A stretch of 64,000 nucleotides of DNA from Rosistilla oblonga (GTDB taxonomy: Bacteria > Planctomycetota > Planctomycetia > Pirellulales > Pirellulaceae): the NCBI RefSeq assembly GCF_007751715.1, contig NZ_CP036292.1, positions 6,703,339 through 6,767,338 on the forward strand. Direction: 5' to 3'. Below, one piece after another: positions 49,448-61,600 of this stretch; position 1 is the first letter of the stretch; each line of letters begins with the position of its first letter. Both the position numbers and the translations under genes were made by a program. Under the pieces are notes generated by a model that had not been told where the DNA came from, did not search any database, and saw nothing but the letters and a program-made list of their open reading frames with translations.

Positions 49448-50350
49448 ATGTCGGTCGCAGACCCTTCGTCTCATTCCAAGGAACACCCGCAGCGGTCGCT
49501 GAGGATTTCGCAGTTCGACCAGGTCAGTTCGATGCTGATGGCGCTGCTGGTCTTCGTCGGCTTCTTCGTCTTCTTCATGTTCATGATCTGGTTGCTGGAT
49601 CGGTTGAACTTTAGGACCGGCGAAGTGGTTGTGGCGATCGTCGAAGAGGCGGCTGGCCGCGGCGAAAACGCCGAGGGATTCGAACGCGATTTCGAACCAC
49701 CCGGAGAGGAAGAGGTCTCCGAGCTGACCGAACCCACGCTGACCGACACCCTGCAAGCGGTCACCGATGCTGTCAGTTCGGTCGCGGCGTCACTCGATTC
49801 GATGAACACCGACGCATCGGCTTCGACGACCGGATCGGGGCAGGGAGACAGTCGCCCGCCGGGTCCCGAGGGGGAGGGAGAAGACATTATCCCGCGATTT
49901 GAGCGGTGGAACCTGAAGTTCCAAGCGAAATCGATGGTGGCGTATGCCGAACAACTCGACTTCTACCAGATCGAACTCGGCGCGATCGGCGGCTCGACCG
50001 AGGGCGTCGACTACGCCTCGAACCTCGCCAAATCGCCTAAGAAGAAGCACAACCCCGACACCTCGACTGAAAAACGGCTCTACTTTCGCTTCACGCAAGC
50101 CGGCCCGCTGGAACGCTGGGACAAGTCGCTGCTAGGCAAAGCGGGAGTTGGCGTGGGAGCGGGGCGGCACGTGCTGAAGTTCATCCCGCCGAACCTCGAG
50201 AACATCCTGGCCCACACGGAATTGGAATACGCCAAGGAGAAGGGCTACCAGAGCGTGACGCAGATCGCCAAAACGATCTTCGAATCGCAACCCGGTGGCG
50301 ATGGGCATCACTTTGTCGTGATCGAACAACGCTACCGGAAACCGAAGTGA
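49448..50350 (+). CDS. Single-TM protein, candidate energy transducer of the ExbB/ExbD locus
   Basis: A 300-residue protein from ATG 49448. One hydrophobic segment (VSSMLMALLVFVGFFVFFMF, about residues 27-50) near the N-terminus, then an acidic, Gly/Ser-rich linker (about 60-150), then a C-terminal ordered domain (about 150-300) with no recognised family. The topology is like TonB or TolA: short cytoplasmic N-terminus, one helix, extended periplasmic linker and a terminal domain. It lies 261 bp upstream of exbB. No TonB signature (such as YP or conserved C-terminal domain) is seen, so a transducer role is inferred from position and topology only. Confidence 0.7.
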   Translation: MSVADPSSHSKEHPQRSLRISQFDQVSSMLMALLVFVGFFVFFMFMIWLLDRLNFRTGEVVVAIVEEAAGRGENAEGFERDFEPPGEEEVSELTEPTLTDTLQAVTDAVSSVAASLDSMNTDASASTTGSGQGDSRPPGPEGEGEDIIPRFERWNLKFQAKSMVAYAEQLDFYQIELGAIGGSTEGVDYASNLAKSPKKKHNPDTSTEKRLYFRFTQAGPLERWDKSLLGKAGVGVGAGRHVLKFIPPNLENILAHTELEYAKEKGYQSVTQIAKTIFESQPGGDGHHFVVIEQRYRKPK

Positions 50351-50377
50351 CGCACCTGCAACCGCTACCTGGCCGGC

Positions 50378-50383
50378 TATAAT
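50378..50383 (+). promoter_or_regulatory. Candidate -10 element upstream of exbB
   Basis: A consensus TATAAT at 50378-50383, 229 bases before the exbB ATG. The -35 at 16-17 bases upstream is poor (CTGCAA). It suggests an internal promoter for exbB and the genes after it, weakly supported. Confidence 0.35.
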
Positions 50384-50611
50384 TTAAGGAATCGAATTCC
50401 CACGCCCCCACGTCGGCTTGCCACGAGTTCGTGGGTGAATATGCTCGTATGAATACGGGTTTCCCCGAGACCTCCAGCCTCCACTACTCTTCAACCTTGG
50501 AACGTCTCCATCGATTCGACGCAGCGGCATCGTTCGCTTGTTTGAATCAAAATCCCGTCGAATTTAGCAAACGCTCCAAAGAAATTTTCCTCGATTCGAG
50601 ACCACGCCTCT

Positions 50612-51268
50612 ATGTCTGCGATGCTGCTGGCCAAAGCCGACGTTTACACAATGATCGCCAACTCCATTTACTTCGCCTTGGCGGCCGTCGCCTTGTGGGG
50701 TATCTACTGCGTGGTGATCGTATGGACACGCGTGGCGGCAAAGCGTTTTAAGTCCGAAGACATACAAAACGATTACCTCGACGACATGGCGGAGCCGCTG
50801 GAAGCGGGCGACTTTGAAGCCGTGCTGGAGCTTGTCGAAGGGGACGCTCGAGCGATCCCGCAGATGGTCGAACTGGCCGTCGAAAATCGCGAACTCGGTT
50901 ACCAAAAAGTCAAAGCGTTGGTGATCGAACGCTTCCAACGCGACGTGATCGCCGACCTCGAACACCGGCTCAGCTGGATCTCGACGGTGATCAAAAGCGC
51001 GCCGATGATCGGGCTGTTCGGAACGGTATTCGGCATGATGGGAGCGTTTAAAACGCTGGCGACCGCCGAATCGGTCGACCCCACGATGCTCGCCGCCGAC
51101 ATTAACGTCGCGCTGCGAACGACGGCTTGCGGGCTGGCGATCGCCGTTCCGTTGATCATCGCGACGGCCAGCGTGAACATCCGGATCAGCAAGATGGAAG
51201 ATCTGGTCGGGGCGGGGCTGAATCGCTTTTTCGAAGCGTTCCGATCCGGGCTCTCGCGACCTCGCTAA
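50612..51268 (+). CDS. exbB: MotA/TolQ/ExbB proton channel family protein
   Basis: A 218-residue inner-membrane protein of the ExbB/TolQ family, which forms the pentameric ion channel driving TonB- or Tol-type work. Three helices fit: about residues 15-38, 121-145 and 167-190. The conserved cores PMIGLFGTVFGMMGAF and LRTTACGLAIAVPLIIA are present. The Thr/Ser in the third helix matches the ion path. It is followed by two exbD genes. Short ExbB-like length. ATG at 50612. Confidence 0.95.
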   Translation: MSAMLLAKADVYTMIANSIYFALAAVALWGIYCVVIVWTRVAAKRFKSEDIQNDYLDDMAEPLEAGDFEAVLELVEGDARAIPQMVELAVENRELGYQKVKALVIERFQRDVIADLEHRLSWISTVIKSAPMIGLFGTVFGMMGAFKTLATAESVDPTMLAADINVALRTTACGLAIAVPLIIATASVNIRISKMEDLVGAGLNRFFEAFRSGLSRPR

Positions 51269-51321
51269 TCGCCTTCGGCTAGCAAACCTTTTCCATCCCG
51301 TCCCCGTTCGAGTAACCGACC

Positions 51322-51795
51322 ATGTCCACAGCGGCCCCGATCGACGAAATCGACGACGACCCGCCGATCATGACCTCCACGCGGTCCGATGATGACGAGA
51401 TGGACATCACGCCGATGATCGACATCACCTTCCTGCTGCTGATCTTCTTCGTCGTCTGTTCCAAGATGGATCCATCGCAGACAACCAACCTGCCGCTGGC
51501 CGATAATGGGCTCGCAGTTTCGGCAAAAGATTCGGCAGTGGTTAAAATGAAACGGGGAACCGGCGAGACGGCTGAATTGCAATCCAACGATGGCGTCACC
51601 TTCTCCAACGATCCCGAAGCACAACTCGAAGCGATCACCCGCTACATCACCCGCGAACGCGAATCGGGCAAGGCGAAGATCATGCTGATGTGCGAGAAGG
51701 ATGTCCGGAGCGGCGAGGTGACGCGCGTGCAGAAAATGCTCGGCGACGCTTTCCCCGAAGTGGAACAAACGTATATCGCGGTCAAAGAGGAATAG
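51322..51795 (+). CDS. exbD: ExbD/TolR-like biopolymer transport protein
   Basis: A 157-residue single-helix partner of ExbB. The helix core DITPMIDITFLLLIFFVV places Asp34 where the proton-carrying Asp of Escherichia coli ExbD lies. The periplasmic C-terminal domain (about 50-157) includes LEAITRYITRERESGKAKIMLM and VTRVQKMLGDAFPEVEQ. It starts 53 bp after exbB and 12 bp before the second exbD. Two ExbDs per ExbB occur in several Tol/Exb-type systems. Confidence 0.94.
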   Translation: MSTAAPIDEIDDDPPIMTSTRSDDDEMDITPMIDITFLLLIFFVVCSKMDPSQTTNLPLADNGLAVSAKDSAVVKMKRGTGETAELQSNDGVTFSNDPEAQLEAITRYITRERESGKAKIMLMCEKDVRSGEVTRVQKMLGDAFPEVEQTYIAVKEE

Positions 51796-51807
51796 GGATC
51801 TGATTTG

Positions 51808-52560
51808 ATGAGCATGACCTGCCCGCGGTGCGGTGCCCAAACGCAAGGCGTCCGTTGCGAAAGCTGTGGTGCCGATCTGCCCACCGCCGACGCGATCCCC
51901 GTCGCTTCAGAGCCCTCGGCGGCTGAACCGATCGAAATCGAAGCGACCGACGACGGCAGCGATGCCGCGGAGGCCGAGACCGTCGAAGCCGCCGCCGCCG
52001 AACCGGCGGCGACAGAAGCTCACGCCTCGGTCGAGACCACCGCGACCGCTCACCATCACGGACACGCGATGGCCGAAGCTGTCAACGCGACAAACTTTGG
52101 CATCGAAGAAGAGGTTGCTCCCGACGATCTGCAGATGAAGGGCAAGATCCGCGACGATTCGGAACTGGATATGACGCCGATGGTCGACGTGACCTTCCTG
52201 CTGCTGATCTTCTTCATGGTCACCGCGTCGTTCAGTCTGCAAAAGTCGATCACGATGCCGCGAGAACAGAGCGAAGCGCCTAGCACCAACCAACAGGACG
52301 AACCCGAAGAGGAGATCGATCTGGTGACCGTCCAGATCGACGAATTTAATTCGTTCACCGTGTTGGCTGCCGACTGGGAGCGCGAGGTTCCCGGTAAACA
52401 AAATTTGATCCGGGCGTTGAAAGAAGCAAAACCCGAATCCGAAGCTCGATTGAAGATCGAGGTTCACGAAGACGCCGTGATCGAAGCGGTCGTCGATGCG
52501 ATGGACGCTGGAGCGGAAGTCGGTTTTTCCGAGATCCAGAAATCTGAGGTAAAAGGATAG
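51808..52560 (+). CDS. ExbD-family protein with cytoplasmic zinc ribbon
   Basis: A 250-residue ExbD variant. Residues 1-25 hold two Cys pairs (CPRCG and CESCG), a zinc-ribbon. A ~95-residue acidic Ala/Glu-rich, then His-containing linker follows, and the ExbD helix begins near residue 120 (DMTPMVDVTFLLLIFFMV, Asp127 as the proton carrier). The C-terminal ~100 residues form the ExbD periplasmic domain. The zinc ribbon and linker would lie in the cytoplasm. The ATG at 51808 is preferred to the TTG three bases before. It follows exbD by 12 bp and precedes the propeller gene by 3 bp. Confidence 0.92.
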   Translation: MSMTCPRCGAQTQGVRCESCGADLPTADAIPVASEPSAAEPIEIEATDDGSDAAEAETVEAAAAEPAATEAHASVETTATAHHHGHAMAEAVNATNFGIEEEVAPDDLQMKGKIRDDSELDMTPMVDVTFLLLIFFMVTASFSLQKSITMPREQSEAPSTNQQDEPEEEIDLVTVQIDEFNSFTVLAADWEREVPGKQNLIRALKEAKPESEARLKIEVHEDAVIEAVVDAMDAGAEVGFSEIQKSEVKG

Positions 52561-52563
52561 TTG

Positions 52564-55500
52564 ATGTCACAGTCTGTGCTCGCACGCGAATTGATCGCCC
52601 TGATTGAACGCCGTGGTCTGTTGGACCAAGAGATCGTCGATGCTCTAAACCAACAGATGGAAGAGGGTGGCGCGCGGGTGACTCCCGAAGCGGTTGCAAA
52701 ACTGCTGGTCGATAACGGACACCTGACCCGATACCAAGCGACCAAATTGATCGGCGAATTGCGATCCGAACAATATCAAGAGGAAACCGAAGCCGTCGAG
52801 GCGGTGGAAGTTGCCGAAGAGCCCGAATTGCTGCTCGACGATGAAACCGATGCGGCGATGGCGATCGAAGCCATCGAGGTCGAACCGGTCGAAGTCGAAC
52901 CGATCCAGGCGGACATTGTCGACGCTCAGATCGTCGACGCCGAAACGGTGGAAGCCGAACCGATCTCGGGGGACGAAGCGACCGACAAACCGAAGCGTTC
53001 GGCCAGCGGCACCCGCCGCACGGCAAAACGCAAGTCGACCGAGCCTGAAAAAAGCGTCTGGGATTCGTTCAAAATCTACGGCGTCGCCGGCGCGATCCTG
53101 GCCTGCTTGCCGCTGGGTTGGTTCTTCTGGAACTACATCAACAAGGGCAACGCTGCCGAATACATGGAGCGAGCCAACGGGCTGTACGCTCAGGAAAATT
53201 ACACCGGCGCGAAACAGACCTACCAGGATTTCCTCGACAACTTTGGCGAAGAGACCGAAGACTCTTCGAAAGCTCGCGTCCGGATCGCGATGTCGCAGCT
53301 GTACCAAACGCTGCAGAACACGACCGATCCCGAAAAGTTCCTAACAACAGCGACTACCCTGCTGCCAACGGTCATCAATGAAGAAGCGCTCGGCGAAAAC
53401 CGAGCCGACTTGGCGGGGCTGTTGGTCGAGGTGGCGGAGAAGTTTGTCAAGCAAGCCGACAAGACAGTCGACGCCAACGAAAAAGAAAAGATCATCGGCC
53501 AGTTGGATCAACAGATGGAATTGATCGCCGAGCCGAGCTACGTTTCCAGCGAACTGCGCGAGAGCTTGGGCAAGCGTTTAGCGATCATCCAAGAGGATCG
53601 GCTGCGAGTCACCCGCGACATCAGCCGCGACCGCAAACTGGCTGATACCGTCGCCGCGATGAAGAAGGCGTTGGAGGCGAAGGACACCAAGACGGCTTAC
53701 GCGGCGCGGAAACAGATCATCCGCGAATACCCACGTCTGCACGACGAATCGCAGATGACCGCGTTGATCGCCGAAGCCAGCAAGCTGCAACAGGAACTTG
53801 TCAAAACTGGCGTCGCCGAACTGAAGGTATCGACCGACGAACTGGAGACCAAGATCCGTAAATCGATCGTGCTGGCAAACCAGTCGGGACGGTCACTCAA
53901 CGAACTGGGCGATCTCGTCTACTTCGTCCGCGTCGGCGGATCGGTACAAGCCCTCAAAGCCTCCAACGGCTCGCTGCTGTGGCGGCGTTTTGTCGGTTAC
54001 CGCGACGAACATCCACCGACCGCTCTGGGCGAAACACCCGAGGACGGCGTGCTGCTGTCGGACGGTTCGCAATTGGAGGTCCAGCGATTGTCGGGAGCCG
54101 ATGGCAAGCTGCAATGGCGAGCCGCGATCGGCGAGACCTTCACCCGTCCAATCGTCGCCGACGAAACGATCAACTTCAGCACGCATTCGGGCAAAGTCGT
54201 CTCGTTGGACGCCGAAACAGGCAAGACGCAGTGGGTCTCCCAGATCCCACAAGCCCTGGAAGTCAGCCCCGGAACCGAAAGCAGAAAGGGTCTGTCGGTC
54301 TCTTACGTTCCCGGCGATCACAGCAACCTGTATGTGTTGGATCACCGCAACGGCAACTGCATCGAATCTTATTACGTAGGGCACCAAGAGAAATCGATCC
54401 GGGTTCCGCCGACGTACCTGTTAAACCATGTGTTTGTCTTCGAAAACCGGTCGAGCGATTATTGCTTGATGCACGTGTTGCAAACTGACAAGCGAGGCCA
54501 TGAACTCAAACAAGCCCAAACCAGTTTCCGCTTAACCGGCAACGTCTTGGTCGCGCCGCAGATCGAAGGCCGACGCTTGATCGTCGTCACCAACCTCGGC
54601 CAGATCTCGGTATTCGAAGTCGAACCAACCGCAGAGACGAACAAGGTCAGCAAGGTTGCCGAACAGGTTCCTTCGTACAGCGAACCGACGCTCACGCAGA
54701 TGACGATCGATCGATCGCAGATGTGGGTCACCGGCAGCCAGATCATGCGTTTCGATCTGCAGATCAACACGGGCCGCGTGATTCCGGGCGAAGTGAAATA
54801 TGCCGGCGATGTCTTCTCGGCTCAACCGAAACTGATCGGCAACGCACTGATTCACGCTCGCGTTGTCAGCGGCACCAAAGGGATCCGCGTGACCGCGGTT
54901 GAGCCCAAGACGATGGAGGTCTTCTGGCAAACCGACCTCGGTGTCCCCACGGCGTTTGTTGCTAAAAACGGATCGACGCTGCACGCCGCGACTTCGCAGG
55001 GAGCACTCTACGAGATCGACTCCGCCTCGATCGCTTCGGGAGCGACCAAGAAGCCGGTGGAGAATCCGGGCGGCCAGGGACACGGGATCCAATTTGTTTC
55101 GCCGATTTCGTTTGGCGAGAACACCAAGATCATGGTTAACCAAACCAAGCCCGACCAGATCGCTGTCTACGATCCGTCGCGCGAGAAACAAAAGCTGCGG
55201 CTGGTCAAACTGGCGCTCCCCGACGGCCGTCCCACCGCCGATCCACTGGTCGTCGGCAGAGGACTGTTGATGCCGCAGGACAGCGGCCGGATTGCGATGA
55301 TGGACTGGCAGAGCGGTCGGATGCTTTCCAACCCGTTCCAACCATCGCTGAAGCCCGACGAAAAGGTGACCTGGACGACGATGGCCGCGCTGCCAAGCGA
55401 TCCCGAACAGGTGATCTTTGGCGACAACCGCAAGAAGCTGTATCGCGTGCGAGCTGGCGACCAGATCCGCCAACTTTCCGACAACGATGTCGAACGGCCA

Positions 55501-55965
55501 CTGTTGGGCCCGCTGACCATTGTCGGCGACCAGGTGCTGGCGATCGCATCGGGCCCATCGGCCGACATGCTGCTGACCTTTGATTCCAACAGTCTCAAAG
55601 CCGGCACCGAATTGCTGCTGGAAGGACGTGTCACTTGGGGCCCAAAAACGATCGATTCGGTCGCTTTGGTCGCCACCGATAACCAGAAACTAACAGCCTT
55701 CGATTCGACGGGCAAAGCTGTTTGGCAGGTCGATCTGCCCGCGGGCAAACCGGTTGGAGATCCGTTGCCGGCCGATGGGTCGCTGCTGCTTGCCGGCGAA
55801 CAAGGCTGGGTCCTGCGGATCGATCCGAGCAACGGCCAACTGCAGGGAAAAACCGATATCGGGCAACCGCTTTCGGGCACGCCGCTTGTGTTTGGCAGCG
55901 TTATCGTCGTCCCGGGAGCCGAGGGAATCGTGTTCGCTATCGATCCTCCGGCCAACGTAAACTGA
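52564..55965 (+). CDS. Membrane-anchored TPR / PQQ-type beta-propeller protein
   Basis: 1133 residues from ATG 52564. Residues 1-66 form a helical domain (VAKLLVDNGHLTRYQATKLI), like the short N-terminal segment in many planctomycete kinases. An acidic linker precedes a TM helix (171-191). TPR-like helices follow (about 196-430), then a beta-propeller (about 440-1133) with repeated Trp/Gly blades (GSLLWRRFVGYRDEHPPT, GKTQWVSQIPQAL, GKAVWQVDLPAGKPVGDP). Propeller domains of this PQQ-like kind bind proteins or ligands; no enzyme motif is seen. It likely scaffolds the ExbB/ExbD complex. Three-base gap from the previous gene. Confidence 0.92.
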   Translation: MSQSVLARELIALIERRGLLDQEIVDALNQQMEEGGARVTPEAVAKLLVDNGHLTRYQATKLIGELRSEQYQEETEAVEAVEVAEEPELLLDDETDAAMAIEAIEVEPVEVEPIQADIVDAQIVDAETVEAEPISGDEATDKPKRSASGTRRTAKRKSTEPEKSVWDSFKIYGVAGAILACLPLGWFFWNYINKGNAAEYMERANGLYAQENYTGAKQTYQDFLDNFGEETEDSSKARVRIAMSQLYQTLQNTTDPEKFLTTATTLLPTVINEEALGENRADLAGLLVEVAEKFVKQADKTVDANEKEKIIGQLDQQMELIAEPSYVSSELRESLGKRLAIIQEDRLRVTRDISRDRKLADTVAAMKKALEAKDTKTAYAARKQIIREYPRLHDESQMTALIAEASKLQQELVKTGVAELKVSTDELETKIRKSIVLANQSGRSLNELGDLVYFVRVGGSVQALKASNGSLLWRRFVGYRDEHPPTALGETPEDGVLLSDGSQLEVQRLSGADGKLQWRAAIGETFTRPIVADETINFSTHSGKVVSLDAETGKTQWVSQIPQALEVSPGTESRKGLSVSYVPGDHSNLYVLDHRNGNCIESYYVGHQEKSIRVPPTYLLNHVFVFENRSSDYCLMHVLQTDKRGHELKQAQTSFRLTGNVLVAPQIEGRRLIVVTNLGQISVFEVEPTAETNKVSKVAEQVPSYSEPTLTQMTIDRSQMWVTGSQIMRFDLQINTGRVIPGEVKYAGDVFSAQPKLIGNALIHARVVSGTKGIRVTAVEPKTMEVFWQTDLGVPTAFVAKNGSTLHAATSQGALYEIDSASIASGATKKPVENPGGQGHGIQFVSPISFGENTKIMVNQTKPDQIAVYDPSREKQKLRLVKLALPDGRPTADPLVVGRGLLMPQDSGRIAMMDWQSGRMLSNPFQPSLKPDEKVTWTTMAALPSDPEQVIFGDNRKKLYRVRAGDQIRQLSDNDVERPLLGPLTIVGDQVLAIASGPSADMLLTFDSNSLKAGTELLLEGRVTWGPKTIDSVALVATDNQKLTAFDSTGKAVWQVDLPAGKPVGDPLPADGSLLLAGEQGWVLRIDPSNGQLQGKTDIGQPLSGTPLVFGSVIVVPGAEGIVFAIDPPANVN

Positions 55966-56032
55966 GCTGACCGTCGTGGCCAATCGGGCCGTGCAACGCT
56001 TCGCTAAAATCATGGACTTGAAATTTAATACG

Positions 56033-58390
56033 ATGCCAATCCCAAGCCTGATAGACTCACGAAACCGCTTCGCCTCGGCGTGGGTTTTGTGTCTGTGCGT
56101 CGCGATGTGGTTTGGCAGCAGTCCCGTCGCGAAGGCTCAAAACGATGCGCAAGGTCCCGTTCCAACCGGAATGGAACTGTTGGATGTCGAACCGTTTGAT
56201 ATCGTTCGGTTCACCGAGAAAGCTGGCGGCGGCGCCGTCCGTACGATCCCCTTCAACTTCCCCAACCGCAAGTTGCCGATCAACCCCAAGGGGAAATTGA
56301 TCATGAACCTTGTTGGGCTGGAGGGGACCAAATACGAAGCCGATTGGAAGGACATCGAAACGATCGAGCTTTGGGAAAAGCGGCTGCAAGCCGAAGTCCA
56401 AAAGATGATCGGCGAAAAACGCTTCGACGATGCCTATCCGCTGCTGGCGATCCTGTTGCGCGATTACCCGCAGATCGAAGGACTCGACCAACTGCGCACC
56501 GACTACATGTATCGCAACGCCGCCGATTCGCTCAAACGCGGCGAATATAAGCACACCCTGGCGATGCTCGAATCGCTCCGCCAACACAACCCGACGTTTA
56601 ACACCGCGATCGTGCTGCGGGTGATCGGAGCGGTGACCGACAAACTGATCCAAGAACTTGTCGATGGCGGACAACTGGAATACGCCCAGAAGCTGCACGC
56701 GCGACTCGAGAGCGATTACCCCGACGGCGAGATCTCCTCGATTCCCAAGTGGGCCGACGTCTTCTTGAAGATGGCGACCGAAAAGCGTGAAGCCGCTCTG
56801 GCGGCTCGCAAGAAAGGCGACATGCGAGCGGCGCGAGCGTTGTCGCGGGAAAGCTATGCGATCTGGCCGCGGATCGAAGGGGGCAAGGAGTTGATCGCGC
56901 AGATCGACGCGGAATACCCGTTGGTGAACGTCGGCGTTTTGCAAACCGCAACCGTCTTCGACCCGACGCGGATCGACAACTGGTCGGCTCGCCGCGCGGG
57001 ACGCTTGCTGTACCGAACGCTCTTCGAAATCAGCGGCGCTGGCCCCGAGGGAGGCGAATACGATTTCCTGTTTGGCGATCTCGAGATCAGCGACGACCGC
57101 AAGGAACTGTATTTCGACATCGACCTGAACGAACTGCCGCCGTCGTTGGCAACCGCCAATTCGTTTAACGTCTCCGAACTGTTGATGAATCGCGCTCGCC
57201 CCGACCACCCCGACTATTCGGCTCCCTGGGCGGCGTTGTTAGACCGCATCGAAATCCCCACGCTGACCAAGATCACCGCATATCTGAACCGTCCCCATGT
57301 CGTCCCGCACGCCTTGCTGCAGCGGAAGATCGAAGGGGGCGTCTTCGAAGGCAAACCGGGAGCCCCGACCGGTTCGTACCGCTTCGACCTTCAAAAAGAT
57401 GGAATCACTCGCTACATCTACACCGGCACGGACTTGAAGGAACACCAACCGCGTGAGGTTGTCGAAATCGAACTCGCCGATTCGGGCGATGCCGTCTCCG
57501 GCCTGCTTCGTGGCGAACTCGATGTCGTCGACCAACTGTTCCCCGCCGACGCGGATCGGCTGCGACAGGATCCCCGCGTCAGCGTGAACAATTACCCGCT
57601 GCCATCGGTCCACATGTTGGTTCCCTGTTCCGATCACCACTTCCTAGCCGACCGCACCTTCCGCCGAGCGCTGCTGTATGGCATCGATCGCGAGACGATT
57701 CTCAGCGGGGAACTGCTGGCCAACAAATCGGTGCAGGGCTGCCAAGTTCTCTCGGGACCGTTCCCCGCCGGGATCGAACTAAACGACCCGTTGGCCTACG
57801 CCTACGACGAGACGATTTTGCCGCGTCCCTACGAACCGCGATTGGGCACGCTGTTGATCACGATGGCCCAACAGCAGGCTGCGGCGCTGGCAAAACGGAA
57901 CAAAGAGGAGCCGCCGGAACTGAAGCCGATCCGAATCGGATATCCCGCCACCGACATCGCCAACGTCGCCTGCGAAGCGATCAAAACGCAGTTGTCACTG
58001 CTGAGCGGATTGGAAGTCGAAACGATCAAACTGCCACCAGGGCAAACCTGGCCCGAACCGGGCCAATGCGACCTCGTCTACGTGATGGCAAGCGTCTGGG
58101 AACCGGTCGCCGATGCCCGCCGCATCGTCGGCCCCGATGGGCTGGCCAAATCCGACAGCCAGTTGGTCGGGATGGGGTTGCGGATGTTGGAAATGTCGAA
58201 AAACTGGAAGGATGTCCGCGACGGCCTCCGCGAACTGCATCGCATCTCGCACCACGAACTCCCCGTCCTGCCGCTGTGGCAGCTCGTCGATTCGTATGCG
58301 TTTCGCAAAGACATCCGCGGCGTCGGCCGCAGCAACGTCACGCTGTATCAATCGCTGGATAATTGGCGACTCTCCTCGAGCACAAAATAA
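56033..58390 (+). CDS. Exported solute-binding protein (SBP_bac_5) with long N-terminal region
   Basis: A 785-residue exported protein. The likely start (ATG 56033) gives a signal peptide (FASAWVLCLCVAMWFG then AKA-Q). ATG 56012 and GTG 55976 are alternatives. Residues ~30-290 are helical, TPR-like. The rest fits the SBP_bac_5 (oligopeptide-binding) fold: LLYRTLFEISGAGPEGGEY, LRGELDVVDQLFPADADRL, and HHFLADRTFRRALLYGIDRE. Ligand unknown; this family normally binds peptides or nickel. No ABC permease lies beside it. It is part of the ExbB/ExbD locus, starting 67 bp after the propeller gene. Confidence 0.85.
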   Translation: MPIPSLIDSRNRFASAWVLCLCVAMWFGSSPVAKAQNDAQGPVPTGMELLDVEPFDIVRFTEKAGGGAVRTIPFNFPNRKLPINPKGKLIMNLVGLEGTKYEADWKDIETIELWEKRLQAEVQKMIGEKRFDDAYPLLAILLRDYPQIEGLDQLRTDYMYRNAADSLKRGEYKHTLAMLESLRQHNPTFNTAIVLRVIGAVTDKLIQELVDGGQLEYAQKLHARLESDYPDGEISSIPKWADVFLKMATEKREAALAARKKGDMRAARALSRESYAIWPRIEGGKELIAQIDAEYPLVNVGVLQTATVFDPTRIDNWSARRAGRLLYRTLFEISGAGPEGGEYDFLFGDLEISDDRKELYFDIDLNELPPSLATANSFNVSELLMNRARPDHPDYSAPWAALLDRIEIPTLTKITAYLNRPHVVPHALLQRKIEGGVFEGKPGAPTGSYRFDLQKDGITRYIYTGTDLKEHQPREVVEIELADSGDAVSGLLRGELDVVDQLFPADADRLRQDPRVSVNNYPLPSVHMLVPCSDHHFLADRTFRRALLYGIDRETILSGELLANKSVQGCQVLSGPFPAGIELNDPLAYAYDETILPRPYEPRLGTLLITMAQQQAAALAKRNKEEPPELKPIRIGYPATDIANVACEAIKTQLSLLSGLEVETIKLPPGQTWPEPGQCDLVYVMASVWEPVADARRIVGPDGLAKSDSQLVGMGLRMLEMSKNWKDVRDGLRELHRISHHELPVLPLWQLVDSYAFRKDIRGVGRSNVTLYQSLDNWRLSSSTK

Positions 58391-58393
58391 CGC

Positions 58394-60871
58394 ATGCGAT
58401 CTTTCGTCAACGGTATCGTCCGAATCTCCTGCCTGCCTTGGCTGGCCCTGCTCGCCTGTGCAGCTCGCGGGGACAATCCGCTTCCCTGGGATTTCAAGCC
58501 CTACAATGTGGTCGTCTGGATCGTCGCCGACGACCGGACCGCGATCGACATCCCCGACTTGATTCACAGCCTCGACGAATCGTTTTATAAGTCGCCCGGT
58601 GCCGCCTGGAGCCCGGTGGTCGAAGAACCGCCAGCCGAGATCCGTTCGATCCTCTATCGCAACTACGAAACGCTGGAATACGACGATATCGCAGCCCGCG
58701 ATTACGTCCTGGCGATGAAGCGGAACCACCTGTTTTCGTCGTCGGTCCGCTCGATCGCAACCGCCGCCGACAAGCTGGAATCGATCCCCGGCGATCCCGT
58801 CGCGATCGAGACGATGAGCCGAGCGTCTGCCGAAATCCCCAAAGCCAACTGGAACCGGTTCCTCGATTCGTTAACGTTCAAAACGCCCGAGCGTCTAGTG
58901 ATCGCCGGGGCCGCGCAAGACGGATCCGATGTCGAAATCTATTTCGATCAAACCTTCATCGCTCGCTTGAAAAACGCTTTGGATGAAGGGGCCCCACGGC
59001 TCCGCAGCGCCGTCGAAAAGTACAAGGAATCGCTGCCAACCGCCTCGCCTACCGAAGCCCAACGGATCAACAAGATCATCGCCGAGAGCGAGGCTTGGGC
59101 GGCGATCAGCGACACGACGACGCTCACCGAAGACCAGCAACTGATCCTCAAGCTCAGCGAGACGCAAGAGCTGACAATCCCAACCGATATCATCCTGCAA
59201 CCGATTCGCGCAGCGCTGGAACAACGGCAACCATGGGCTGAATTTGTTCAGCAATGGAAGATCGATGAAGACGACAACCTGCACATGCGGCTGCCCGGCA
59301 CGCAGACGTTCCTGCCGTTGCCCAACCGCGTTTTCAAGGACTTCTACCTGAAGACAGCTCGGCCCGATGGGATCAAAACGCCCGACGGGGCCGTTGGCAT
59401 CGACAAGCAGGACGAATTCATCAACCAACAGGTTCTGATCGACCAACTGCGCGAGATGATCGTCGAAGGAAACGGTTGGACCAAGTTTGGGACGCGTCTT
59501 TCCGCTCAACCCGAAGGCGTGCTGTATCTCGAATCGCAGTGGTCGGTCGGCGAGGAGGAAGAGGTCTACGAGGCGGCTCGCAAGGCCAAGAAGAAGATGG
59601 TCAACGACGACCTGATGGACGCGATGATCCTACCCCGCGGGATCGCGTTGAATTTGCAGCCGCAAGCAAAAATCATCGACCCGAAAATCCCCGGCGCCGT
59701 CGCGCCAAAGATCGAGAACCCCGACAAAGTCTTTATCGTTCGGATCGAAACCGCCGCATCCCCGATGTCGATCTCGGTCCGCGAACTCGATTGCCCGATG
59801 CGGTTCATGGGCCCGATCGTCACCGCGTCGGCGATCGACCAACGCACGCTGGCCGATGCGGTCGCTCGGGCGACGCTGAAGTCGTTCGCGCCGATCGTTC
59901 GACTCGATAACGTCGGCAAAAAGAACGCTTCGGGCCGCGTCCGCGCTGGCGGCCTGCTGATGATCGAAAACGCCGAAGGCGAACTGGTGCTAGACGAGTC
60001 GTCGCCCGCGGCGATCAAGCCGGGCGATCTGCTGCAACCGATGATTCGCCGAATCGATCGCTTCGGCAACCCGTCGCTGCTGGAGATCGTCGACTTCGCA
60101 TATCTCAAGGCGGCCGAACTCGATAAGGCCAAGATCGAACTCGATGCCTACGCTGGCCGCGTCGGCACACTGCAGGGTCGATCCGATCGCAGGACGATGC
60201 GAACCGCGATGAAGATCCGTCCGTTTTTGGACGAAACCATCGTCCGCTTGCACGCTCAAGGTGAGCCGGACGTGCCGCTGATCGGATACGACATCTTCAG
60301 CAAAGAACTCGATTCACGCGAGATGGAGCTTGTCGGACGGACCGACTGGGACGGCCGGATCTGGATCAAAAAGACCGACCAACCGCTGATGCTGCTGTAC
60401 GTCAAGAACGGCCGTTCAGTGCTGGCGAAACTGCCCGTGGTGCCCGGACAATCGGAGATGGAAGTTGCGGACATCCGCGGCGACGACACGCGTCTGCGAG
60501 CCGAGGCCTACCTGAAGGGTGTCGAGAATCAGATCGTCGACCTCGTCGCGATCCGGACCCTGTTGGCCGCACGAATCCGCATCAAGCTGGAGAAAGGGGA
60601 CCTGGAATCGGCGCGGGAACTATTCCGAGCTCTCAAGGAACAACCAAGCTATACGCTGATCGCCGACGACATGGACTTTCAATCGACGGTCATCCAAACC
60701 GAGAGCAAGTCGCAGAACGCGGCGATCCGCCGGATGTTTGGCCGCACCCGCGAACTGCTGAAAGAACACATCTCCGACGCCCTGATCAACTCGCTGCAAC
60801 GCGATCTGATCGCCGTCGAAAAGGGCGAACCGATGCCGAGTAAAGCAAACGCCGAAGCGGAAACCAATTAG
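58394..60871 (+). CDS. Unrecognised exported protein, 825 aa, last gene of ExbB/ExbD locus
   Basis: Starts at ATG 58394, three bases after the solute-binding gene. A signal peptide is visible (ISCLPWLALLACAARGD). The body is mixed alpha/beta with no recognised domain. Segments AAVELE-like helices, repeated KIIDPKIPGAVAPKIENPDK and VSVRELDCPMRFMGP suggest several domains; a Gly-rich turn (KKNASGRVRAGGLLMIE) resembles a flagellar or envelope-associated beta fold. The C-terminal ~110 residues are helical and charged. It completes the seven-gene run and is presumed an extracytoplasmic partner of the complex. Confidence 0.8.
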   Translation: MRSFVNGIVRISCLPWLALLACAARGDNPLPWDFKPYNVVVWIVADDRTAIDIPDLIHSLDESFYKSPGAAWSPVVEEPPAEIRSILYRNYETLEYDDIAARDYVLAMKRNHLFSSSVRSIATAADKLESIPGDPVAIETMSRASAEIPKANWNRFLDSLTFKTPERLVIAGAAQDGSDVEIYFDQTFIARLKNALDEGAPRLRSAVEKYKESLPTASPTEAQRINKIIAESEAWAAISDTTTLTEDQQLILKLSETQELTIPTDIILQPIRAALEQRQPWAEFVQQWKIDEDDNLHMRLPGTQTFLPLPNRVFKDFYLKTARPDGIKTPDGAVGIDKQDEFINQQVLIDQLREMIVEGNGWTKFGTRLSAQPEGVLYLESQWSVGEEEEVYEAARKAKKKMVNDDLMDAMILPRGIALNLQPQAKIIDPKIPGAVAPKIENPDKVFIVRIETAASPMSISVRELDCPMRFMGPIVTASAIDQRTLADAVARATLKSFAPIVRLDNVGKKNASGRVRAGGLLMIENAEGELVLDESSPAAIKPGDLLQPMIRRIDRFGNPSLLEIVDFAYLKAAELDKAKIELDAYAGRVGTLQGRSDRRTMRTAMKIRPFLDETIVRLHAQGEPDVPLIGYDIFSKELDSREMELVGRTDWDGRIWIKKTDQPLMLLYVKNGRSVLAKLPVVPGQSEMEVADIRGDDTRLRAEAYLKGVENQIVDLVAIRTLLAARIRIKLEKGDLESARELFRALKEQPSYTLIADDMDFQSTVIQTESKSQNAAIRRMFGRTRELLKEHISDALINSLQRDLIAVEKGEPMPSKANAEAETN

Positions 60872-60910: not shown

Positions 60911-61600
60911 TCAACCAGCGTCGCCGACCACCGCTTGCAGCCCACCGTCGATCAATTCGTAGCGTTGCTGCATCAGGTCGGCCAGGGCCATGCTGTGGGT
61001 CACGACGATCAACATCGCGTTTTCCTGCTTCTGCAGATCGACCAACAACCGCCCCACGGTCTCGGCGGTGTTGCGATCCAAGTTCCCCGTCGGTTCATCG
61101 GCTAGCACCAGCGTCGGTTCGCAGACCAGCGCCCGAGCAACCGCAACGCGTTCGCGCTCGCCGCCGGATAGCTCGCTCGGCAGATGCTCCAACCGTCCGC
61201 TTAGCCCCACGCGATCCAAGAGATCTTGGGCTCGCTGGACCCTCGCCGCCGACGGCTTGCCGTGAGCCAGCGACGGGACCAGCACGTTTTCGATCACCGA
61301 CAACTGCGGCAGCAGATGATGCTCTTGAAAAATGAAGCCGATCCGTTGGCTGCGAAACAGCGCGATCGCTTCTTCATCCAACGCGTAGGGGTCGACATCG
61401 TCCAGCTTCACGCTGCCCGAAGTCGGCCGATCGAGCGAACCGAGGATGTGCAGCAGCGTACTTTTGCCCGAGCCGCTGGGACCGATGATCGCCGCGTTTT
61501 GCCCCGCTTCCAATTGCAGCGAAACATCCCGCAACACGACCAAGGGATCGGTCCGCGTTTCATATTGCTTACTGACCTGTTCGACAACCAACTTGCTCAT
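60911..61600 (-). CDS. lolD: LolD/MacB-type ABC transporter ATPase
   Basis: A 229-residue ATPase with Walker A GPSGSGKST, signature LSGGERERVAVARAL and Walker B VLADEPTGNLD, all of the LolD/FtsE/MacB type. In the LolCDE system it powers release of lipoproteins from the inner membrane; MacB-type relatives pump other substrates. No LolC/LolE permease lies adjacent, so the assignment to lipoprotein release is by similarity only. ATG at 61600. It follows the TPR membrane protein gene by 195 bp on the same strand. Confidence 0.85.
   Translation of the reverse strand: MSKLVVEQVSKQYETRTDPLVVLRDVSLQLEAGQNAAIIGPSGSGKSTLLHILGSLDRPTSGSVKLDDVDPYALDEEAIALFRSQRIGFIFQEHHLLPQLSVIENVLVPSLAHGKPSAARVQRAQDLLDRVGLSGRLEHLPSELSGGERERVAVARALVCEPTLVLADEPTGNLDRNTAETVGRLLVDLQKQENAMLIVVTHSMALADLMQQRYELIDGGLQAVVGDAG

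Follow-up and report, generated by a model that had tools for sequence, protein, structure and literature searches.

What do ExbB/ExbD-type motor genes drive when no recognisable TonB or TolA is encoded beside them? This question is raised by a 64,000-nucleotide stretch of the planctomycete Rosistilla oblonga genome (the window; C1:6703339-6767338, where C1 is the single contig of the 7.25 Mb host genome), in which seven open reading frames (ORFs), labelled g1 to g7 from 5' to 3', occupy positions 49448-60871. The first-pass annotation of this DNA had reported seven co-directional ORFs here, and both their place and their strand (+) agree with our analysis. TonB, TolA, TolB, Pal and the gliding families had no match in the seven proteins in Pfam and NCBIfam scans. 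We regard it as well supported that the seven genes make up a single machine, and for its function we infer, as our best guess, a Tol-like one. The proposal that the locus encodes a Tol-like trans-envelope force machine, driven by the proton-motive force, with g1 as transducer and characteristic of the class Planctomycetia, stands in our judgement at about even chances.

The motor itself was readily recognised. g2 matched the Pfam family MotA_ExbB (E 2.8e-22; 79.3 bits against a curated cut-off of 22.9), and g3 and g4 both matched ExbD (E 6.3e-14 and 52.6 bits, and E 5.4e-20 and 72.2 bits, respectively, against a curated cut-off of 25.4). The best NCBIfam matches of g2-g4 were tolQ/tolR, far below cut-off, and their likeness to TolQ, TolR, ExbB or ExbD in particular is sub-threshold. 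The transmembrane (TM) aspartate of ExbD and the ring threonines of ExbB are residues with motor roles. In alignments of homologues, T138 and T171 of ExbB (g2) and the TM residue Asp34 of ExbD1 (g3) are invariant (93/93 each), and TM Asp128 of ExbD2 (g4) is found in 84/85; the residues expected of working motors are kept in g2-g4. The presence of two distinct ExbDs suggests a heterodimer, by analogy with AglRQS and with the vWA clusters of the Planctomycetes-Verrucomicrobia-Chlamydiae (PVC) group. The same aspartate and threonines are also discussed in PMC12204202. g4 had been described earlier as a zinc-ribbon ExbD; the ExbD assignment holds, but the N-terminal ribbon gave a weak match (DZR, 0.0029, below cut-off), with its four cysteines present in 62-63 of the 64-69 aligned homologues having a residue there. 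The host genome contains nine matches to the MotA_ExbB family, g2 included. Two other exbB loci of the host, L184 and L186 (L numbers denote loci or stretches, G numbers genomes and f numbers families of the sample), adjoin genes for TPR proteins and for large proteins whose weak matches are of the squalene-hopene-cyclase type; together with this locus they perhaps belong to a broader group of motor loci in planctomycetes.

Conservation of the gene order carries the conclusion that the genes belong together. A first set comprised 20 stretches around g7 matches in genomes other than the host, in which the genes were sought by tblastn. In 17 of these 20 loci, which were chosen for a g7 match, g1-g7 were complete, on one strand and in one order, with identities in conserved loci running from 66% (g2) down to ~19% (g5). 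The exceptions were L046, which begins at a contig edge and holds g5-g7; L049, with g2-g7 present and g1 elsewhere; and L052, in which g2-g5 were found by tblastn, g6-g7 by profile in the overlapping L229, and g1 elsewhere. A named collection of 80 loci, the best of 137 relatives and chosen by g1, included Rhodopirellula, Rubripirellula, Aporhodopirellula, Blastopirellula, Pirellula, Thermogutta and Gimesia records; at least three of its loci (L074, L118, L129) repeat loci of the first set (L034, L043, L053). Named loci that extend 9.8 kb or more beyond g1 numbered 48, and 30 of them show the order 1-2-3-4-5-6-7 unbroken (27/45 without the three repeats), as do 22 of 32 other fetched stretches, two sets pooled, that contained g1 and had room. 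L061, L101 and L123 carry the same genes as split or overlapping ORFs, and exbB precedes g1 in L078 and L080. L130 is without g2-g4, L116 without a g2 match and L089 without g6-g7, and L107 stops after g6. The earlier claim of a dedicated motor-plus-envelope gene set is supported by this conservation, which extends far beyond close relatives, the order being kept at identities as low as those of g5; the refutation envisaged in the first-pass annotation, conservation among close relatives only, therefore does not apply.

The set is distributed class-wide. With g7 as query, 21 of 294 genomes sampled phylum-wide were matched, all in the host's own class; the g1 profile matched 22 of the 294, namely the same 21 class members and, weakly and partially, G102. 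Within the class the g1 profile matched 176/198 genomes, 158/177 of good quality, and 98/109 genera, mostly once per genome. At E<=1e-20 there were 139 such matches, and the remaining 37, which were weaker, all fell in families f103 and f106. The g7 profile matched 95/118 class genomes. Some genomes carry the set in pieces. In f102, g1-g5-g6-g7 stand without the motor in 5/5 stretches (L162-L166), and the same five genomes have exbB-exbD1-exbD2 in a separate triad (5/5), which gives the best ExbB-profile match (E 1.5e-58 to 7.3e-65; runner-up 1.4e-25 or weaker). Motor-free g1-g5-g6-g7 also occur in L237, L238 and L130. Genome G300 has g1-g4 at one site (L171) and g5-g7 at another, and in L177, a second copy in G383, g1 is divergent from g2-g4. 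Because of these split arrangements, we regard g2-g3-g4 and g5-g6-g7 as modules, with g1 found with either or alone. The features are listed below.

Features of the locus, in positions of the window
Feature	Position	Strand	Basis
g1: one-TM protein, candidate force transducer	49448..50350	+	ORF, model, alignment
g2: ExbB/TolQ-family motor subunit	50612..51268	+	Pfam, NCBIfam, alignment
g3: ExbD/TolR-family subunit 1 (ExbD1)	51322..51795	+	Pfam, NCBIfam, alignment
g4: ExbD/TolR-family subunit 2 (ExbD2), N-terminal CxxC...CxxC ribbon	51805..52560	+	Pfam, NCBIfam, alignment
g5: TM-like segment, helical stretch, PQQ/BamB-type beta-propeller	52561..55965	+	Pfam, NCBIfam, BamB chains, alignment
g6: exported, repeats and C-terminal SBP_bac_5-like domain	55976..58390	+	Pfam, family-5 binding proteins
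g7: exported, FlgT/TolB-N-like predicted fold	58394..60871	+	ORF, structure model

From exbB onward the intergenic gaps are 53, 9, 0, 10 and 3 bp, taking mechanically assigned starts.

The class sample does not point to an ordinary Ton or Tol system. TolB_N was undetected in all 118 class genomes, the host's own included (3/14 control genomes were matched), and TonB_C was uncommon, with matches in 22/118, again including the host; because of these counts we do not regard the locus as a normal Ton or Tol system. The g1 gene was present in 18 of the 20 TonB-negative genomes listed (of 96), G371 and G296 being without it, and the system is thus independent of TonB. The first-pass annotation would have been refuted by an exbB/exbD pair mapping to a normal TonB system elsewhere in the genome, and this does not cleanly apply. 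The host has one TonB (C1:4274332-4274565) beside a TonB-dependent receptor and with no exbBD next to it, but g1 occurs in TonB-negative genomes. The stretch around the host TonB (L190, C1:4268000-4281000) encodes a 218-aa TonB and an 815-aa TonB-dependent receptor.

The first-pass annotation had concluded that the motor is without a partner. It was right that none of the seven proteins matches TonB or TolA, but the conclusion is probably wrong because it overlooks g1, which has the topology of these proteins and keeps company with the motor or with g5-g7. The layout of g1 consists of a cytoplasmic N-terminus, a TM helix (22-52), a linker rich in proline and acidic residues (~53-149) and a C-terminal domain (150-297), which was modelled with a predicted local distance difference test score (pLDDT) >90 in each 10-residue block from 151 onward. 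Over 112 sequences the linker averages 9.6% Pro and 20.4% Asp+Glu. A TM helix, an extended linker and a globular C-terminal domain, as in TonB and TolA, are all found in g1. It matched no accepted Pfam family, TonB_C included; its profile found nothing significant among PDB sequences; and no vWA domain was matched in g1 or g5-g7 at E<=1 in Pfam. We consider g1 likely to be a force transducer, whose mode of action may be like that of TonB and TolA, outside the bounds of their families, and because it accompanies either module we read it as the link between the motor and a periplasmic complex. Stand-alone g1 paralogues with 36-40% identity to the window g1 occur in Rhodopirellula and Aporhodopirellula (L094, L095, L097, L098). 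One g1 homologue at a contig edge (L128) comes from a record labelled as an Alphaproteobacteria metagenome-assembled genome, a label that is probably due to mis-binning.

The remaining three proteins would make up this periplasmic complex. g5 matched PQQ_2/BamB in Pfam (E 2.2e-27) and BamB chains with a best E of 1.6e-8; it is made up of an N-terminal region, a TM-like segment at ~172-190, a helical stretch that looks TPR-like by eye and the propeller, and the alignment places the TM-like segment at 172-190 with none at the N-terminus. g6 begins with a signal peptide (by eye) and matched SBP_bac_5 (E 1.2e-10; 41.6 bits against a cut-off of 32.4), its best match among family-5 binding proteins having an E of 1.5e-4. 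No ABC permease or ATPase was found among the seven genes; of the flanking ORFs, one was scanned, which lies shortly beyond the end of g7 on the minus strand (60911-61600) and encodes a LolD-like ABC ATPase. This ATPase was considered as a member of the locus and rejected, ABC matches being found in L040 only among the 20 stretches, at 24-27% identity.

The structure predicted for g7 has a mean pLDDT of 80 and comprises an alpha/beta domain (33-160 and 440-536; FlgT/TolB-N-like), a small beta domain, an Ig-like domain (613-695) and a helical C-terminus. At 825 aa the window g7 is longer than 18 of 19 relatives (484-588 aa) because its alpha/beta domain is interrupted at ~160-440; this lineage-specific insertion (codons ~160-440) is mostly of low confidence and largely helical. 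FlgT belongs to the flagellar H ring of Vibrio. The top Foldseek matches by E were 8z5n_0 of the LPHT ring (E 8e-6), which we take to be FlgT, and the FlgT structure 3w1e (E 5.8e-5), both with a probability of 1.00; TolB (7mx5_B) was matched at E 2.4e-4. In VIA, 8z5n_0 came in the seventh row (Z 8.6; root-mean-square deviation (rmsd) 8.4; 201 aligned), with 3w1e at Z 7.6 (rmsd 10.5; 202 aligned) and TolB at Z 7.5 (rmsd 3.5; 113 aligned), where a Z <8 may reflect a common arrangement. The resemblance of the g7 model to FlgT and to the N-domain of TolB is moderate. There was no g7 match on plasmids, and a lipoprotein anchor, considered by eye, appeared unconserved and was dropped.

An eighth gene, labelled g0, accompanies the set in relatives. 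Ten flank families recurred in at least 8 of 84 loci, and six of them were looked up; the commonest, adjoining the set, was g0, which lies beside it on the same strand in 39/50 named loci and in 18/28 others with room. Its product looks exported and combines a toroid like that of squalene-hopene cyclases with HEAT repeats. The gene stands before g1 (e.g. L056, L063, L101, L120), except that it precedes exbB in L078 and L080 and follows g7 in L044. Paralogues of g0 are numerous: the host genome has 14 matches to it, none in the window, the best being C1:834357-836009 (E 7.4e-156).

A working model can be drawn from these parts. An ExbB pentamer would hold ExbD1 and ExbD2 as a dimeric, probably heterodimeric, axle, and ion flow would turn the motor. 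Held by its single TM helix, g1 would use its Pro/acid linker and C-terminal domain to pass the force on to g5, g6 and g7, which would form a complex in the periplasm together with the toroid g0 that many relatives encode alongside. In this complex g5 would supply inner-membrane-anchored repeats and a propeller, g6 a binding-protein fold working without an ABC transporter, and g7 a FlgT/TolB-N-like part. The most likely job is Tol-like, in that the outer envelope would be held or pulled to the inner membrane, in budding or where the inner and outer membranes are in contact. Cell division in planctomycetes proceeds without FtsZ (PMC12283558), and these bacteria have an enlarged periplasm and inner-outer membrane contacts of unknown make-up (PMC5394234). 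ExbB, ExbD and TolQ are absent from the main text of PMC12283558. Likewise, the main text of a Planctopirus limnophila essentiality study (PMC10632474) contains neither ExbB, ExbD, biopolymer, TolQ or Tol-Pal nor the locus tags Plim_16, 17, 18 and 09, the orthologue tags not being established.

Several observations weigh against the Tol-like machine with g1 as its transducer. In the window 261 bp (50351-50611) separate g1 from exbB, and g1 is for this reason the loosest member; g1 is found without g2-g7 in 9/48 long named loci (L079, L083, L094, L095, L097, L098, L104, L105, L108); and it lies apart from g2-g7 in G216 and in the Planctopirus-like genomes G354 and G283, where g2-g7 are joined. 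In G354, exbB to g7 occupy about 2,201,700-2,211,500, and g1 is at 1,132,823-1,133,710. In families f103 and f106 the components match weakly, lie scattered in the stretches fetched, or are absent. The TM region of g1 has no conserved His or SHLS motif, any His occurring in 9/112 sequences, and its whole model, with TM helix and linker in the query, found no PDB match at E<=0.001 in Foldseek and a best Z of 3.3 in VIA. TolA and TonB require a TM-region His for contact with the motor (PMC12204202). For g7, no accepted Pfam family was found (28 members scanned, none convincing, best E 0.028) and its profile gave nothing significant against PDB sequences; the Foldseek probability for TolB is 0.44, the FlgT chains fit the model with an rmsd of 8.4-10.5, and in VIA they are outranked by single-domain matches, 3e8v (Z 9.9) on the Ig-like domain 613-695 and 8zak_B (Z 9.4) on the helical end. 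Finally, no outer-membrane protein was recognised in the seven genes or in six of the ten recurrent flank families.

Alternatively, the machine might power macromolecule uptake across the outer membrane into the periplasm, with g6 binding or threading the cargo; we think this improbable. In its favour, carbonyl cyanide m-chlorophenyl hydrazone (CCCP) abolishes uptake of dextran and green fluorescent protein into the periplasm of G. obscuriglobus, where the outer-membrane route is unknown (for dextran, 0/816 treated cells against 23% of 1,065 untreated; PMC5394234); TonB was found in only four of the planctomycetes examined (PMC3422733); and g6 bears a substrate-binding fold. However, CCCP sensitivity is compatible with many processes, a near-universal single copy suits housekeeping as well as feeding, and neither the seven proteins nor six of the ten flank families matched a beta-barrel receptor, porin, carbohydrate-active enzyme or ABC permease. 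That g5 rather than g1 carries the force, g1 being a regulator or plug, is more doubtful. Like g1, g5 is membrane anchored, and the separation of g1 from g2-g7 in the three genomes named above speaks for this reading; but g5 shows by eye no long Pro/acid linker and has large domains, whereas such a linker is present in g1, which keeps company with either of the modules. A bolder proposal, to which we attach slightly less weight again, is that g1-g7, with g0, form or energise a crateriform inner-outer contact complex that pulls macromolecules across a mostly TonB-less outer membrane, as a third class-wide proton-driven system beside Ton and Tol. Crateriform structures appear to join the outer and cytoplasmic membranes (PMC5394234), and crateriform and polysaccharide-binding mechanisms have been shown only for some Planctomycetia species (PMC11131199).

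A flagellar accessory role, in which g7 would be a ring protein of the basal body, akin to FlgT, and the motor would be related to stators, is unlikely. It draws on the g7 model, on the kinship of ExbB/ExbD with MotA/MotB, whose relatives are classified in PMC12505986, and on the whole sample, where g7 occurs in 88/102 FlhA-positive and 7/16 FlhA-negative genomes. FlhA (PF00771) was matched in 102/118 class genomes; FliF (PF08345), tried as a flagellum marker, was dropped because it matched 33/118, with 6 of these matches scoring below the curated cut-off. All 16 FlhA-negative genomes belong to f103 or f106, so the association of g7 with FlhA follows family. Within these two families the matches are weak and the association does not hold, g7 being found in 7/16 FlhA-negative and 2/13 FlhA-positive genomes (the g7-negatives G382, G386 and G390 were deduced, and in G330 the match to FlhA is fragmentary); g1 is present, again by weak matches, in 13/16 FlhA-negative genomes. 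A separate MotAB-like pair is also seen by eye in the host genome (L183). Least of all do we credit the idea that this ExbB/ExbD energises the orphan TonB of the host, the other genes being bystanders: that TonB adjoins a receptor and no exbBD, but the gene set is present in TonB-negative genomes, g1-g7 stay linked over great divergence, and the host has eight further MotA/ExbB-family matches.

The Tol-like machine that we favour can be set beside known systems. With Tol-Pal it shares a TolQ/TolR-type motor, a single-TM linker protein (g1), a propeller protein (g5) and a TolB-N-like model (g7); it differs in having two ExbDs, in a g1 that is not recognisable as TolA, in the lack of TolB_N matches in the 118 class genomes and in a g5 propeller that is of PQQ/BamB type and membrane anchored, and we know of no Tol counterpart of the SBP-like g6 or the toroid g0. 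The Myxococcus gliding motor AglRQS likewise combines one TolQ-like with two TolR-like subunits, but no gliding family was matched in our seven proteins. Part of the g7 model (residues 30-611) follows FlgT, whereas g7 matches no Pfam family, carries extra domains of Ig-like and helical type, and shows no flagellar tie within the families where FlhA varies. ExbBD-TonB resembles the locus in motor type and transducer topology, but g1 is without TonB_C, no receptor lies in the seven genes and the set occurs in TonB-less genomes. Among the literature matches listed, which do not cover subscription papers, no description of this gene set was found, and the nearest system is that of the PVC vWA transducer clusters, which likewise have no known function and contain a tolQ-like gene, two different tolR-like genes, a TPR gene and a gene for a three-domain transducer (PMC12204202). 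Their transducer, unlike g1, has a vWA C-terminus and often an SHLS/His motif, and section 8 of that paper mentions for them no gene for a propeller, an SBP or a g7-like protein. The locus is an apparently undescribed, class-wide variant of ExbBD/TolQR-driven machines. With a motor set of this breadth, questions of division, membrane contact and uptake can be put to the test in P. limnophila, which is genetically tractable, and the set suggests that force transducers exist beyond TonB, TolA and the vWA family.

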